Source: Gordionus sp. m RMFG-2023 (lineage: Eukaryota; Nematomorpha; Gordioida; Chordodea; Parachordodidae). From it: 64,000 bases of DNA. The stretch is taken from contig NC_088776.1 of NCBI RefSeq assembly GCF_954871325.1, positions 15,686,052 to 15,750,051 on the forward strand, given 5' to 3'. The notes below the pieces were generated by a model. That model was not told where the DNA came from, made no database searches, and was given only the letters and a program-made list of their open reading frames with translations. A program made the position numbers and the translations under genes. Positions 23,299 to 36,060 of the stretch are shown piece after piece (within the stretch, counting starts at the first letter, position 1; each line of letters begins with the position of its first letter).

Positions 23299-24381
23299 TT
23301 AAAAATATGATTGTCGTTCAGGATCAATCAAGGAGTCTTGCATAAAATTGAAGTTGCTTTGGAAGGAAGCCAATAGATCATTTAATGTACGAGTATGAGA
23401 AGAATTTTCATTCAAATGCTTGCTTGTGACAGTTGAAACATATGGCTTGATAACCTCATTTTGTGATAAAAATGTGCCCATGTTTTGAATATGCTGAAAA
23501 TGGGAAGGTGGTTTCCCATTTGTATTATGCCCATTGTTAATACTATTTATATTATCATTAGTGCCCATTGAAATGTTGGTAGGAATATTTTCAGGCTTCT
23601 CAATGACAACCATACCATCATTATCATCTGATGAAGATGTATCATCATTATTATTTGATTGTATATTATTATTTTTGGCTATTGGATGTTTCTGTTCAGA
23701 TATTGTGTTATTGATATTACCATTAGCATTTGATTTATATGAATGAAGATATGATTCAAAAAATTTAGATTGGTCTATCTTATCAACCAATGCTTTTAAT
23801 TGTTGATAAGTAAAATTAGTTTCCAAAAAGTTTTTGGGTTTAGGTGTTATTAAGGATGAAAGATGTTCAGATGATTGATTAAGAAAATCAGAAAATGACA
23901 ATTTAACTACTTTCATATCAAATACTGTAATATAGAATTTTTCTAAAATATTAAGTTCCACCTCAGTTAGGTTGTTTAAAAAATCCTCTTTGACTTTTGG
24001 AATTTGTAAAGCAGACAAAATGTAATATATTTTTAATATATAATATGAAATATTTGATTGGTCTTGATCTTTTTCCATTTTTTGTTTTTTAATTTGTTTT
24101 TTGGAATTTCGGGATATTTCATTATTCAATGTAATATATGTTTTATGTAAATCATTTAACGTTTCTAATAATACTATAACCTCTGAATAATGAGATACAG
24201 CAGTCTTTTGGTCGTCATTTAATTCGGTTCCTGATTTTTGTTTTTCTCTATAATCATCTAATTTTGCCTTTCGTTTTTCTAAATTTCTAATCTTTTTTTC
24301 TAGCACTAATACATATTGTTTATAAGTCTCTGTTTCAATATTTGTCTTATTATCTTGAGGTTTAATCTGTGTTGATGCCAT
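23299..24381 (-). CDS. CAPRIN: Caprin homologue, short form
   Basis: This is a single-exon frame of 360 residues. Residues 20-190 match the N-terminal helical and dimerisation region of caprin: KKIRNLEKRKAKLDDYREKQ near 29-48, then ELNDDQKTAVSHYSEVI and LTEVELNILEKFY. Residues 210-330 are an Asn/Ser-rich, low-complexity stretch. The C-terminus, TLNDLLASFQ then FNFMQDSLID, corresponds to the caprin segment (NFIQDSMLD in mammals) that binds the G3BP NTF2-like domain. Known caprins are cytoplasmic RNA-granule proteins acting with G3BP and FMRP in translation control. Mammalian caprin-1 has about 330 more residues rich in RGG motifs; here the frame stops six residues after the motif, and no splice donor is visible at the end. 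The start ATG follows an in-frame AT-rich leader. Function by homology only. Confidence 0.93.
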   Translation of the reverse strand: MASTQIKPQDNKTNIETETYKQYVLVLEKKIRNLEKRKAKLDDYREKQKSGTELNDDQKTAVSHYSEVIVLLETLNDLHKTYITLNNEISRNSKKQIKKQKMEKDQDQSNISYYILKIYYILSALQIPKVKEDFLNNLTEVELNILEKFYITVFDMKVVKLSFSDFLNQSSEHLSSLITPKPKNFLETNFTYQQLKALVDKIDQSKFFESYLHSYKSNANGNINNTISEQKHPIAKNNNIQSNNNDDTSSSDDNDGMVVIEKPENIPTNISMGTNDNINSINNGHNTNGKPPSHFQHIQNMGTFLSQNEVIKPYVSTVTSKHLNENSSHTRTLNDLLASFQSNFNFMQDSLIDPERQSYF

Positions 24382-27300
24382 TGATTCCTATTAAATTGTT
24401 AAGTATAATAAAAGGAATATACAAAATACTTTTTAACTTTTCTAGATTTGATAAGTTTCAAGGAAATTTGTAAAGATAATTAATTTTGATAAATTTAACA
24501 ACAAGGAAAATAGTTACTTTCGAATATTAAAGAAAAAAATTTATAATAAAAAATTAGTTTGCTTTTTCCGATGCAAATGGATACAGAATCTTTAAATATG
24601 GGTATTCCTTACCTTCAAAGTGTGGAAATAAATAAGTGATCGTTTTCGTATTGGTATTCTATTTTTAAGTTTTTTTTAAGTTCTAAAAATTCTAATTAAA
24701 AGTAATTTTAACATAGCCTAAACAAAATTATTAGTAATAAAATTTTGGCCAATACGATAAAAAAGAGAACGAAATTATTCAGAAAATTTTATCAGTTTTT
24801 ACTTCTTAATTGTATATTATTTCAATCCATTTGGTTTATAAGAATATTTATAAAATATAAAAAGATTGCAAAATTGGCGTAATTCTAGAATAAAAGAGAT
24901 AAATATATGGTGTGCGTTAATATTGATTTTCTTAACTGGTACTGATCTATGTCTCAGTATATTTTCTCATAAAAACCGAGCTATAAATAAAATGAAAACT
25001 ATGACATCCGTCTTTGAGGGTAAAGTGAACCAAATTTTTTGACTAATTCTGAAACTAGAGTATTAAGTAGTGCTTTATAAGTACATTTTAGATAGTTTTA
25101 AAAAAGAAAATAAATAATTCGTAAAATAAGGAAAAAAAATTGTCAAATTAGCATTATGGCAGAAGGAGAATATAGAAATTCCAAATACATCGTTTTCTTT
25201 AATATATATTTCGATATTTATTAATCCTTATATCAATTTCGCAAACCCCAAAATATTAACATAATTATAAGCCAAGTAACTATGATTCCCGCTTTAGAGG
25301 TGAAGTCAGCCAATCTTCCTGACATTGACTCTGAAACTCATATCAATATTTAGTGCGTATTCAAAAGTTTTCGTATTTCAACCCGTTTAGAAGATAGATT
25401 TGAGATAAAGCAATATCGATTAGAAAATATTAGCCAAGATTGACATGCTAGAAGAAAAATTATAGTTGCACTAAATATCTGGATGAGCTAATGCTTGATT
25501 AGTGTTTATTAATTAATCAATCAGTTTAGTTAAACAAAAACTAGTCATATTGCGATTCAAAAATTAATTACGTCTAAATAATAAATGCCTTGATGTTATT
25601 TTTTCCCTGTTTAAAAATATTTTTCTTTATAGATGATACATAATATTTTTTTTGGGTTTATTTAATAGATATAGAACTAAAATTATATTTTAAAAAATAT
25701 GATATTGATATGACTCACCACGTCTACATAGCAGAATATTCGCTGAAGGCGAACCCCCGCCCCCCCCCCCTCAAAAATTTATACCTACTCACAAATTTTT
25801 AATTATAATGGTAATCCCTTCATATATTTTAAAAGAGTCACTTTAATCATCGATCCTTTTTTTAAGCTATCAAAAAATTGTGAATGCAAAAGAGTTATTT
25901 TATAGAATGTGAATTAAATTAAAAACCTCCCCCTCAGTTACGATGAATACATTTGTTATATATAATGATAAAATGGAGCTTATACTTTTATTATTCTAAA
26001 CATTTCATCTTATTACATATGATAATCCTAAAAATATATTGTTGCGCTATTATAGATTTTTTTTGATGTTATATTTTTATATATATAGTGTTGAATTTTG
26101 ACAGATGTGTCCCACCGTCTGAGTGGGGAAAACACAGTCCATGATTGGGGGTCCGGGATGGTCGATAAGGGGATCCAGGGGGCCGGGTTTGGGTATCGAT
26201 TTTGTCATGAGATCACGCGGACAACGCAGTAATCCAAAAGCCAATACCACCGAATTAAGGTTAAACAAATTTTATTTCAATAGTTTACAAAAAAGAGGAA
26301 ATTAAATAAAATCATTCATCAAAAAAAAATCACAGTCACGAATTTCATTTTTGGTGGTCTTTATATTGATTAATTAAATAATAAAAAAAAGAAAGTTAAT
26401 AAATCCAGGCTCATCTCGAAAACTGGCTAGAACCAGTTTTGAGGATGAAATCAAAACAAGCTTGGTATACGTGAACAAAGAAAAAAAAAGATATACATGA
26501 TAATGAGAAAAACACATCACTTTTAATTGAACAAAGAAAACAAAAATATAAATGGTAATATAAAAACATATCACTTAAACAAAAACATAATAACTATTAT
26601 AAACTAGTTAAAACACAACATATAGCTTATCAAAATTCTATAATAATATAGATTTTTACTTGAAAGTGTGAATTAATAGCACGGTTGCAGCGGAAAGGCA
26701 AAAACGACTGAAATTTAATTCAGGAAAATTAGTAAGATATAAATAAAAAAAACATAAATTAAATTAAATTGGTAAGTAAATTAATTCCCTGGAAAAAAAA
26801 TTCTCCAGTAAGAATATTTTGCGGAAAATAATTCCAAAGAAAAAAACCACAAGATAAATTTTCATTGTTATGATCTTCAAAAAAATTTTTAGCAGAATTT
26901 TTCTTTTTGAAGAAGATAGATTTTAATCAAATATTACCTAAAAATTTAAAAAATTTTTAATAAAAGTTCATATATATATAATCAAAACTTTTGCAATTTC
27001 TATGGATAAAAAATATTTCAAAATGACAATTTTTTGAGCAAAAATCTTAATTTCTGAAGATTTTTTTAAAACTCAATATAGTTTTAAGTTTAACAAACCA
27101 AAAAGACAGCGAAACTTTTATCACAAAACACATTTTCACGAAACTTTTATTGTGAATGTTTATTAAAGCGGATTAATAATTATAAATAAACTTATATCAC
27201 GAATTCATATTCGCGTATGCTATTCAGCAAAGTCCATATCAAGAATTTTTCATAACAAAACCCTTACAAAACTCTTTAAAGCGAATACATAACATGGAAA

Positions 27301-31405: not shown

Positions 31406-33228
31406 ATATATATAAAGGGTTCGGATGAATGTATAGCATGATTGGAAAAAATTAATTAAAATGACTAGACCCCATTGATAAGCTAAAGAATTCTGAATAA
31501 ATAATGTATATACCAAGAGCGCATATTATAATCAAAAAATTTTTTACTACCATGTTCTGAATCTCCTTAAAAAGCTAAACATGATCATTTATTTTTTTAA
31601 AATAATGTTATTTACCAAGGGCACAAATTTTAGTCAAAAAAAAAGAAAAAAGTGTATTTTCAAAAACCACTAAGTTATAAAAAATTTACAAACTTATTAA
31701 TAACATTTTCTAAATCCTTTTAATGAGCTTAATATGATTATGCTTTCATTTTCTTAAAAATAATGTAAATTCATAGAGGGCATATAGTTTAGTCAAAAAA
31801 AAGTTATTTCAAAAGCCCACTAAGTTATAGAAAATTTTAAAGTATAATATTAGCAATTTTTGATTACTTTTAATAAGCTATATATGATTCTGCATTCATA
31901 TTTTATAAATTAAGCTTCTTTGATAGGGGGTGCATAGTTTTCCCCCTTTTAGAGATTAAGTTAAGGTGATATTTTTACCAGGTTAGGTTTAGTTAATACT
32001 AGTTTAATAGTTCAGTTTGGAACCATGGTTGTCACATGACAGATAAACATCTGTTGTTATTATGAATATTGATTCTGCTGATGTATTTCTAATCAGTATT
32101 GGATACCAATTTTTTGATTCCTTAACAAAATATTCAAAACAAGTAATTTCAATTGGGAATGAAATACTTAAAACCCTATATTCCTTAATAAGAATAGCAA
32201 GTGAAAAAATATATATTTGAATTGTTCACTAATCAGGTTATTATAAAAACATGTATAACCAAAGTAATATATTTTTCCATTTATTTATGGTTCCTGTTCA
32301 CTGCTTATTCATGACAATATTAATGTCTCTATATTTTAATAAGGATTAAAGATGGTGTGGGTAATTAAACTTAAATTCTTTTATATACCCTTTATTGCCT
32401 TCTACTATATAATTTTAAAACCCATCAACAAGAAGCCAAACAATGATCATAATAGGAAACATTTAATATGAATAGTACATTCATCTTTTTTTAATTATTT
32501 CCCCAATAAAAAAATTTTATTAATTTAAAAATTTTGCATGTATGATGATTTGTAGAAAATAGTCTCCATAAAATTTCATTGTAAGAATTTAATAAAAAAC
32601 TACTTACTTCAATTATAAAGTTATATTAATTAAGTTGACTTATGAAAATAAAAATTAAGATTTAATTTTTACTCTCTGATACAAATTTGATATCTTTTCT
32701 TAGATAATAATTTTAAACCATATTATCTAATATTTATAACATAAAATGTTAATATAGGTTTGGTTTGCTTTTTTAATTTTTTTTAGGTTTGGTTCAATTC
32801 ATTAAAAAAATAAATTATATAGGGTTCGAAGTCTGGTTCAACACTCTGCTTAGATATACATTTATATATATATTAATATTATTTGCTTTATTACTATTGT
32901 CATTGAATTCTTTTCAAAAATAACTTTAGCAAGTCAGTATTTTTAAAAAGAAGTATTTAATCTGGCCTGCCTAATAGATATTTTTAAAAAATAAAGGTAA
33001 ATTCTTTTAGAGCCTTAAATTTTATTATTAATATTGTTTTCTAAATCTTGATATTAGATATAATTAAAATTTAACTACATCATATTCCAAACATTGAATA
33101 AAAGTAAATAGGGTATTTTTTTAACCAAAAAAAAAATACATGAGATAGTTTAAAAATAAAGATTATTTTAAAATTTTTATAATTATTATGAATAATGGAT
33201 ACTTTTAATAATAAACTTAAAGAAATTA
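31406..33228. other. Intergenic region downstream of TAF10
   Basis: AT-rich DNA without a recognised gene. Between 31470 and 31920 a unit of roughly 130-150 bp is repeated three times in diverged form (CCACTAAGTTATA-AAAATTT and GATTATGC/TTCATTTT-TTAAAAATAATGTA). Confidence 0.45.
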
Positions 33229-33688
33229 TTAATAAAAATAAGGAGGTTTTTTAATGTGAATTCCATATTCAGATGCAGCAGATGCCAGATCATCAGTTGT
33301 TAGTGTGTATTTACCTAATGGAGACAGAGATGAATGTTTATTATTTCCAGTCAATGTTAAATTAGACAAACGCATTTTATTATGTTGTAGTGCATCATTA
33401 GCCAAATCTGTTACAAACTTTTGAGCTGCTAAAGATATCAATCTGATTAATCTAATATCATCAATTTCAAATCCTGATCTAAAAAATGATTTATAAAAAT
33501 AGAATTAGTATACAAAACTTTTGCAAAAAGTAGGTAGAAACTGCATCAGGAATTAATGGAGTATAATCATTAAGTTTGTATAAAAATTCTGATATAGGTT
33601 GCTGATTCATCACTTTATTGATATAACTTTTAAGTTCAGCTTCATCTGCTATTATTTCTAAATTATTATTTGGTTGGCTTTGACTCAT
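33229..33688 (-). CDS. TAF10: TAF10, TFIID/SAGA histone-fold subunit
   Basis: Two exons, 33688-33519 and 33478-33229, are joined across a 40-nt intron (GT...AG, with a perfect TACTAAT branch motif). They give 139 residues. The protein contains the family's key blocks: ISEFLYKLNDYTPLIPDAV (33-50), GFEIDDIRLIRLISLAAQKF (59-78), DLANDALQH (81-89), then KYTLTTDDLASA and the C-terminal EYGIHIKKPPYF. In known organisms TAF10 forms histone-fold pairs with TAF3/TAF8 in TFIID and with SUPT7L in SAGA. The N-terminal tail is short, whereas vertebrate TAF10 has about 100 extra low-complexity residues. The ATG overlaps the TGA of TOMM5 as ATGA. No promoter is obvious between the two genes, so TAF10 may depend on the TOMM5 promoter. 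Confidence 0.96.
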
Positions 33689-33883
33689 TGTGAGGTTAAT
33701 TTAAAAATGAAATAAGGTACTATAAAATAATTTAGATAAAGGATTTAAATTTAAAAATTTACTGGACTTAATCAATGCTACAGTAACAAAAAATTGACCT
33801 ATAGTTAATAAAACTTGACGATCACCAATTCTTTTTTCTTCAGCAGGATCAATTTTAATTTTTTGCGGACTAATTTTAAACAT
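33685..33883 (-). CDS. TOMM5: TOMM5, small subunit of the mitochondrial import receptor complex
   Basis: Two exons, 33883-33763 and 33719-33685, are joined across a 43-nt intron (GTAAAT...TATAG) and encode 51 residues, exactly the human length. The start MFKISPQKIKIDP-E-KR matches the family's MF-I...K-DPEE-KR pattern. Residues 28-46 form the single tail-side membrane helix, and the C-terminal VALIKSIPYFIFKLTSQ lines up with VALLRVTPFILKKLDSI. Without splicing the frame reads on to an unrelated 60-residue form; the spliced version restores family similarity, which strongly supports the intron. Known TOM5 stabilises the outer-membrane TOM complex. Its last codon and stop overlap the TAF10 ATG. 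Confidence 0.92.
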
Positions 33884-33910
33884 CGTATAAGAAGTTGCAA
33901 CTTTAAAAAA

Positions 33911-33934
33911 ACTGTCAGAGTCACGTGTGACAGT
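33911..33934. promoter_or_regulatory. E-box palindrome upstream of TOMM5
   Basis: A 7-bp inverted repeat ACTGTCA...TGACAGT surrounds TCACGTGTGA, with CACGTG at 33922-33927. It lies 28-51 bases upstream of the TOMM5 ATG. CACGTG cores are bound by bHLH-leucine-zipper factors of the USF/TFE/Myc type in animals. The position suggests a promoter element for the TOMM5-TAF10 unit (inference). Confidence 0.5.
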
Positions 33935-33944
33935 TCAGAATACA

Positions 33945-34140
33945 CCAGTGGCCCCTACAACGGGGGGGAGGGGGGTCCTAACCAACTGCTTCAGTAAATT
34001 TGAGTGGGGGTACTTTTTTTTTTTTAATTTTTTTTTAAATTTTCTTTATTATTTAATTCTTTTACTGTTTTGTAACATCCATCATGATCAAGTGATTTCT
34101 GGTTTATAAATGTAATAATAAGACCCCCCCCCCCTCATAA
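33945..34140. repeat. G- and C-tract block
   Basis: A G-rich tract (33962-33975, GGGGGGGAGGGGGG) and a C13 tract (about 34123-34136) face each other across T-rich DNA, like the C-rich subterminal blocks of the elements at 14657 and 43311. It may be a small element of that type, but no terminal repeat or target duplication could be fixed. Confidence 0.4.
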
Positions 34141-34249: not shown

Positions 34250-36060
34250 GCCTAAAAATATTAACCAAAGAAAATACAAATGCCTAATTAAAAATTGCAA
34301 ATCGCATAATATAAGAGATGATTAGAAATTGGATTACTTATAGTATTAAAATGAATAAAGTTTTATGCTCAACATGTCTCTTATTTGGAGGTCTACACAC
34401 AAATTCAAAATGGACATGTGAAGGTCTAGATAAATGGCAGAATATTAATCGTGATTTCTGCATGAATCTTCACGAGGCACATATGATGGCCGATTATGGA
34501 AGACTTTCTCACAATAAAAATTCGATATTAAAATTTATAACACCCCAGAAAGAATGTGTAGATAATAACCGTTCTATCATATGAATTATAATAATATGTT
34601 TAGATTATTTAATATCTCGTGACCAAGCCTTCTGGGGAAACAGGCAACAAGAAGGCAATATGATGGCCCTTATTAAGCTTATTTCAGATTCTGAACCTGT
34701 ACTAAAAATGTATATACAACAAAAGGAAGAAAGAAAAAGAGATTAAAAACGAAATTATATTCAAATCTATTATCATATAATAACATAAATATTCTCATTG
34801 AAACCATGAAAAATATGGTTATAAAAAAAATTCAAAATGAGATTACATTTAACAGGTGCTTTAATAGCTTTGATAGTAAATTATGTTGAAAATAGTGAGA
34901 CGCCGAAGCCTGTTGAAAGACTGATTGACATATACTAGAAATACCACAGGTCTCGATATTAAGCATAATATAATATCCAAACTTGGCTTGATAAATTTAC
35001 CCCTTGAATTTCTAGTTGGAGCAAAGTTATGATGGCGCCTCAAACATGAGTGGAAGAATCAATGGTGTGCAGGCCTTGATGAGAGCAGAGGCGCCAAAGG
35101 CAGCTTTTATTTGGTGTTATTGTCATCGATTAAATTTAATCATTGTTCAATTATGGCAATCAATTAAAGATCTTCGAAATTGATGGGAATACTAGATGAG
35201 ATTTATATCTATTTTAATGGTGTAAAAAGATATGAGGTACTCAAAAAATGTCAGTGTAATGATCTAACGATTTCTACGCATGAAGAATATCGGTAATAGT
35301 ATCGTATTTGATTTAAAATGTTTTTTTTATTTAGAAGCTGTCTATCGTCATATAAAGCTATTGTAATTTTTTTTTCTACTTTATGATGCCTTGAGGGCAG
35401 CTTTAACAAATTTAAAAGATTCTGAAGTCCTGCCACTTCCACTATGGCTAGTGTTATAGTCTTTAGAATAGAAAATTTTGATTTTATCTCATCACTTTGT
35501 GTTTTGGATAAAATATTGTTGATAACAAGTTTAGCTTGTACAAAATTGCAAACCATTTCGAAGGATATAGGGTTTGCAATAAATCAAATTCAATTGGCAA
35601 AAGATTGCTTGATTAATTTGATAAGTATAATATAAATTATTGTCTTAATTATTTTTTGATCTAATAAATAATAACACTGAATTTTTGGATGTTTTTTTCA
35701 AAGGCACAAAATTTTATGAAGGAGAAAAATCTACCTTGTGATTTTGAAAGTTCTAGACTTCAAACATTACAATCCAAAAGGAGAGGTATATATATAACTT
35801 TTATCATTAAATATAGAAATTTTTTTAGCTTAAAATAGGTGTGTTTGCAGTTTAACGAAAGATTTAATGATGATTCGATGAAATTTTACATCAAACATCA
35901 TTTTTAACGCCAAAGGGAATGACAGAAAAATCAATTTTTAAAAAGATATGGAGGATATCTGTGAATTTTACAATTTAAATTCAAGTCAAATTTTCGAAGA
36001 AATGTTGAAGTTCAGAAATATTTATAAGATGGCCAAAATGGGGAATGTAATTATTACTCT
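34250..36060 (+). pseudogene. Degenerate hAT transposase (TTF/DUF4371 type)
   Basis: The frame 34318-34584 has the TTF-zinc-finger pattern KVLCSTCLLFGGLHTNSKW...GLDKWQNI and then HE-AH. From 34600 to 35240 the same strand reads on with stops and shifts through DYLISRDQAFWGNRQQEGNM and a QKEERKRD segment, typical of ZMYM-like hAT proteins. Pieces of the RNase-H-like part follow (about 35530-35760: IGFAINQIQLAKDCLINL; then QNFMKEKNLPCDF). Many stops make it dead. Terminal repeats were not found. Confidence 0.7.

Follow-up and report, generated by a model that had tools for sequence, protein, structure and literature searches.

Overlapping TOMM5 and TAF10 coding regions in a horsehair worm suggest a dicistronic transcription unit

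How might TAF10 be translated when its start codon overlaps the stop codon of TOMM5, an unrelated gene lying immediately upstream? The question is raised by a 64,000-nucleotide stretch (the window) of the genome of Gordionus sp. m RMFG-2023, a horsehair worm of the phylum Nematomorpha (C2:15686052–15750051 of assembly G000; 287 Mb in 267 contigs). The ATGA formed by the two codons on the minus strand is real and can be read directly from the sequence (see Table 1 for all features), and the first-pass annotation of the window was correct in this and in both of its gene models, with TOMM5 homologous over nearly its whole length and TAF10 from its conserved core to its end. It had, however, described the overlap as three shared bases, and this needs to be amended: ATG and TGA have two bases (TG) in common and the coding regions overlap by four. 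Two complete and conserved coding regions lie in tandem on one strand, as in animal dicistronic pairs, and judging from the alignments described below the overlap is not due to chance and both products are genuine homologues. The suggestion that such a layout is rare in animals was too strong, as FlyBase counts 159 dicistronic pairs in fly, along with 18 pairs on the same strand whose coding sequences overlap (PMC4528330). The annotation was right to ask how TAF10 is translated, offering reinitiation on one mRNA, trans-splicing or a separate 5′ end as the answer, all of which are still viable, but leaky scanning was missing from these options.

Table 1. Features of the TOMM5–TAF10 locus (window positions) and of the other tight gene pairs (locus and approximate contig positions in G000).
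Feature	Position	Strand	Details
TOMM5 (TOM5 homologue) exon 1	33763..33883	-	Codons 1–40 and first base of codon 41
TOMM5 intron	33720..33762	-	43 nt, GTAAAT...TTATAG, phase 1 in codon 41
TOMM5 exon 2	33685..33719	-	Tail IPYFIFKLTSQ then stop, ends CAA TGA; also TAF10 5′ leader
ATGA overlap	33685..33688	-	TAF10 ATG 33688-33686, TOMM5 TGA 33687-33685
TAF10 exon 1	33519..33688	-	Open frame, homology, public protein
TAF10 intron	33479..33518	-	40 nt; its removal yields public protein P0001
TAF10 exon 2	33229..33478	-	Bulk of TAF10 Pfam domain; stop 33231-33229
GC patch	33900..33999	.	49% GC compared with 26% GC for the window; isolated, directly upstream of TOMM5
AATAAA	33021..33026	-	Downstream of TAF10
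NAA38–TAF11 locus	L044:3491-7900 (C2 about 9549490-9553900)	same strand	ATGA overlap
MRPL48–TIMM8 (presumed)	L018:1722-1812 (C5 about 5247848)	same strand	86 nt gap, MRPL48 upstream
COX19–TAF1B (tentative)	L058:1383-1438 (C4 about 7069966)	same strand	54 nt gap, COX19-like upstream

Once spliced, TOMM5 is a protein of 51 aa which aligns without gaps to residues 1–50 of human TOM5 (PDB search, E = 3.6e-4) and matches the Pfam Tom5 family with an E-value of 1.9e-4 and 21.9 bits, a score under the curated cut-off of 26.1 bits. When compared with zebrafish TOM5 (P0162), 50 of the 51 residues of the spliced form are aligned (18 identical), but only 44 residues of the unspliced form. We scored all 5340 AG sites on both strands of the window as possible acceptors using BLOSUM62 against four vertebrate TOM5 tails, and the proposed acceptor ranked first with a score of 21 (the runner-up scored 19) and was far ahead amongst the 174 sites with a properly placed stop, where the next score was 13. 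The position of the intron was also compared with that implied by other TOM5 proteins; among the best 120 of 179 matches to the human sequence, those named are vertebrates. Twelve TOM5 isoform models (of 20 sequences; ten from named vertebrates plus P0229 and P0231) depart from the common sequence past residue 40 (41 in the rat model), and all twelve carry T, S, K, I, N or M at position 41, for all of which codons starting with A are possible. As the Gordionus intron divides codon 41 as A/TA, these proteins suggest that the vertebrate TOM5 intron lies at the same codon and past the same first base, bearing in mind that serine also has other codons. Introns of similar length are found in two other Gordionus genes with LSM matches, which we take to be SmF (L009; 41, 39 and 37 nt) and SmD2 (L013; 66 nt), and introns of 40–43 nt are therefore ordinary in this genome. 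The 43-nt intron proposed by the first-pass annotation is thus backed by the TOM5 alignment, which is longer when spliced, by the acceptor ranking, by the codon seen in the vertebrate isoforms and by local intron sizes, and we rejected the idea that it is an artefact. A retained-intron form of TOMM5 is possible, as the unspliced frame stays open to 60 aa and ends with a TAA at 33703–33701, 12 nt ahead of the TAF10 ATG. A protein search by shared words produced no match for TOMM5, and no public Gordionus TOMM5 model was found by this means.

The TAF10 protein obtained after removing the 40-nt intron is 139 aa long and is identical end to end to the public Gordionus protein P0001, with homology covering residues 23–138 and a match to the Pfam TAF10 family (E = 7e-35). 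The conserved core starts near residue 23–33 and a second in-frame ATG is located 78 nt downstream of the first; translation from the overlap ATG, which has an A at -3, is less certain than the remainder of the model and is supported by its open reading frame and by the public protein model. TAF10 and TOMM5 each have one match in the 287-Mb genome, where a search for further copies of either found none, and there is therefore no second TAF10 copy found that could supply the protein.

We propose that TOMM5 and TAF10 form one dicistronic transcription unit expressed from a single mRNA, and give this reading a probability of roughly 0.6. The overlapping stop and start leave no intergenic room for a poly(A) site or promoter between the two genes. 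Transcription would begin at a promoter located 5′ of TOMM5, possibly around the GC-rich patch, which is a candidate for a promoter common to both genes, and produce a single pre-mRNA from which the 43-nt and 40-nt introns would be spliced out. Poly(A) would be added past TAF10, with the AATAAA listed in Table 1 being a possible common signal (an ATTAAA is also present at 33209). Ribosomes arriving at TAF10 would then most likely come by scanning.

Two routes by which TAF10 may be read from this joint mRNA appear about equally likely: the ATGA arrangement favours reinitiation where the codons overlap, and the AUG-free first coding region permits leaky scanning. In leaky scanning, some ribosomes would skip the TOMM5 AUG and next meet the TAF10 AUG 152 nt further on, and this fits the locus because there are 0 AUGs between the two starts; we regard it as a tenable, if tentative, suggestion. 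AUG-free stretches of this length are uncommon in six other Gordionus coding sequences (16/697 overlapping and 1/17 non-overlapping 152-nt stretches). It should be noted that no internal AUG arose when 20,000 synonymous recodings of the TOMM5 peptide were sampled, and we rejected selection on codon choice as the origin of the AUG-free leader since the peptide alone accounts for it; leaky scanning is therefore permitted, but selection for it is unproven. A weak start context would favour leaky scanning, and that of TOMM5 is not obviously weak, with A at -3 and T at +4 (the ten Gordionus starts compared are too few for a consensus). The other route is reinitiation, in which ribosomes would finish TOMM5 at its TGA and begin again on the ATG that overlaps it, and this too we hold to be possible rather than probable. 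ATGA is a stop/start overlap of the type seen in TURBS-type termination-reinitiation, but the exact motif UGGGA was absent when the TOMM5 coding sequence was read by eye.

Whether this arrangement recurs was considered in a small survey, conducted partly by eye, of loci, mostly of small genes, matching the LSM (13 matches), TIM (5, taken as 4 genes), proteasome (21), LYR (3) and CHCH (2) families, in which Pfam scans covered approximately 1.5 kb on each side. This yielded three more tight same-strand pairs, NAA38–TAF11, MRPL48–TIMM8 and COX19–TAF1B. In the first of these, the NAA38 stop TGA lies within CATATGAGC, giving a second ATGA overlap (L044:3760–3763, C2 about 9549759). NAA38 matches the PDB chain of the same name (E = 1.8e-20) but its main exon lacks an initiating ATG, and a first coding exon was looked for and not found. 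The protein opening at the overlap ATG passes a 52-nt intron and then a longer one into TAF11 (PDB TAF11, E = 2.2e-30; Pfam TAFII28, E = 2e-31), whose conserved part starts in exon 2, and exon 1 with the ATG was placed by its open frame only. In the second pair, the upstream gene matches mL48 (E = 3.9e-11) and the downstream gene, with a Tim10/DDP domain, is presumably TIMM8. The third pair consists of a CHCH protein which we assume to be COX19 (best PDB match E = 0.055, not significant) followed by a gene only tentatively assigned to TAF1B, based on a Rrn7 zinc ribbon match (E = 9.6e-4, below cut-off) with no significant match in the PDB search. The survey demonstrates the recurrence of close pairing and not its frequency. 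The second ATGA, again with a TFIID subunit downstream, and the two close pairs count in favour of the dicistronic reading of TOMM5–TAF10, while the eleven loci where the Pfam scan found no second gene on the same strand (L003, L004, L005, L007, L008, L010, L011, L012, L015, L019 and L020) count against it. Weak matches to RtxA at L010 and to a plant Cys-rich family at L020 were under curated cut-offs and were set aside. The remaining loci (L009, L013, L014, L021, L022, L057 and those of the proteasome and LYR families) were judged by codon score or eye only. We note that the TAF11 domain sits beyond the span of the Pfam scan, which would therefore miss a pair of this sort. A codon-score scan for stop/start overlaps was too unspecific to be of use, flagging 3952 candidates across 253,528 bases; it placed TAF11 tenth, and TOMM5–TAF10 was absent among the 25 sites listed. 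The two SmF-like copies, as we presume them to be, at L007 and L009 on contig C1 have first LSM exons that are nearly identical.

The additional pairs also limit how far leaky scanning can be extended. There are five internal AUGs ahead of the second start in NAA38–TAF11 (counted in the main NAA38 exon), seven in COX19–TAF1B and 13 in MRPL48–TIMM8, which excludes leaky scanning as a rule for all pairs; for these three one has to consider either reinitiation at the overlap or 5′ ends of their own. A broader proposal, that nematomorphs have operon-like ATGA pairs in which TFIID subunits (TAF10 and TAF11) come second and are translated by termination-coupled, bacterial-style reinitiation, linking nuclear genes that are essential but unrelated in an animal, seems to us rather doubtful.

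Other explanations would produce TAF10 from an mRNA of its own. Nematomorpha are usually regarded as the sister group of Nematoda, in which operons are frequent, and this kinship favours a nematode-like operon in which a spliced leader would be trans-spliced at the AG at 33721–33720, which is also the TOMM5 cis acceptor, so that a pre-mRNA would give TOMM5 or TAF10. The 31 nt from this acceptor (5′ end 33719) to the TAF10 ATG are AUG-free, the MRPL48–TIMM8 gap contains an AATAAA and one AG, and nematode SL1-type operons, as they are described in an extract of PMC9258526, similarly have genes on the same strand with no intercistronic region, in a related phylum. However, the abutting genes of those operons receive SL1, whereas Gordionus has no known spliced leader: the Rfam SL1 model RF00198 matched nothing in the genome at E ≤ 10 among the 50 candidates scored out of 91546 from a first look (as a control, the model produced matches below its cut-off in 3/14 prokaryote genomes), and no literature match joined Nematomorpha with trans-splicing and a spliced leader. 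The 54-nt COX19–TAF1B gap also lacks any AG, and the stop/start overlap bars a TOMM5 poly(A) site ahead of TAF10. Taken together, we consider a spliced-leader operon to be improbable here.

A separate promoter for TAF10, with transcription starting inside TOMM5 (in either exon or in the intron) and the overlap reflecting mere compaction, is unlikely, though less so than trans-splicing. The AT-rich TOMM5 intron could host such a start site, and the portion of PMC4528330 concerned with fly dicistronic loci has monocistronic transcripts produced at many of them as well. Compaction, however, does not require an exact ATGA at two loci, and the 100-base windows across 33700–33899 have 20–28% GC, unlike the 49% patch further upstream, which is weak evidence against a promoter in this region. 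The unspliced TOMM5 frame, open for 60 codons, allows one more alternative in which the TAF10 mRNA would be a retained-intron transcript and reinitiation or leaky scanning would take place past a TOMM5 stop 12 nt upstream, with no overlap involved. As the 60-aa form would lose the conserved TOM5 tail, we think this very improbable indeed.

The dicistronic reading of TOMM5–TAF10 can be compared with systems already described. In fly dicistronic loci, two complete coding regions likewise follow each other on one strand, the gap between them being tiny or absent, and a small mitochondrial protein may come first. In sloth1–sloth2, where both proteins are small and mitochondrial, reporter data back leaky scanning according to the section of PMC9681215 on translation, but sloth1 and sloth2 are likely paralogues separated by a 5-nt gap, whereas TOMM5 and TAF10 are unrelated, joined by ATGA and from a nematomorph. 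Joint transcripts have been demonstrated for the fly loci, while the Gordionus pair is known here from sequence alone. The green-algal TOM22_SDHAF3, as presented in an excerpt of PMC11892635, is similar in placing a TOM subunit, TOM22, ahead of an unrelated gene; the TOM22 portion is free of internal AUGs, and leaky scanning is indicated by reporter tests. In the same excerpt, algal first ORFs tend toward weak start contexts, in contrast to the A at -3 that can be read from the genomic sequence for TOMM5.

For coupled termination and reinitiation, the relevant portion of PMC5972666 lists AUGA, UAAUG and UGAUG forms in viruses, retrotransposons and a few cellular mRNAs, the UGAUG cases including GAD, and adds that even a 1-nt overlap is likely to preclude the usual rescanning type of reinitiation. 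These systems share the AUGA overlap with TOMM5–TAF10. They differ in that UGGGA, the upstream motif named there for termination-reinitiation, is not found in TOMM5, and the first coding region in Gordionus is just 51 codons long and its coupling putative. In one human case cited in that portion, the downstream product was about 82-fold lower. The likely effect of an overlap on rescanning, this low yield and the missing motif count against our reading.

Among the literature matches listed, we found no report of a TOMM5–TAF10 pairing, and for Nematomorpha none that described trans-splicing, operons or dicistrons. Dicistronic genes are already known as a kind; what appears to be new is the recurrence of the ATGA form within this phylum, with ATGA occurring twice in one animal genome and a TFIID subunit second both times. 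If both proteins are made from one mRNA, then Gordionus would rely on non-standard initiation for its TFIID subunits, and a phylum related to nematodes would illustrate how genes pair where spliced-leader operons are lacking or have yet to arise. The two natural ATGA pairs, one with and one without internal AUGs, would also offer a clean test of leaky scanning versus coupled reinitiation in an animal.

An RNA family scan of the window returned no matches. Elsewhere in the region, an open frame on the plus strand at 34315–34584, just past the TOMM5 5′ flank, resembles the zinc-finger region of a transposon protein, presumably of the hAT/zf-MYM type. A long open frame on the minus strand at 23299–24387 resembles what we take to be the N-terminal part of Caprin, and the 10 kb preceding the window include open frames (L016:1–6236) that we assume to be retroelement-like.
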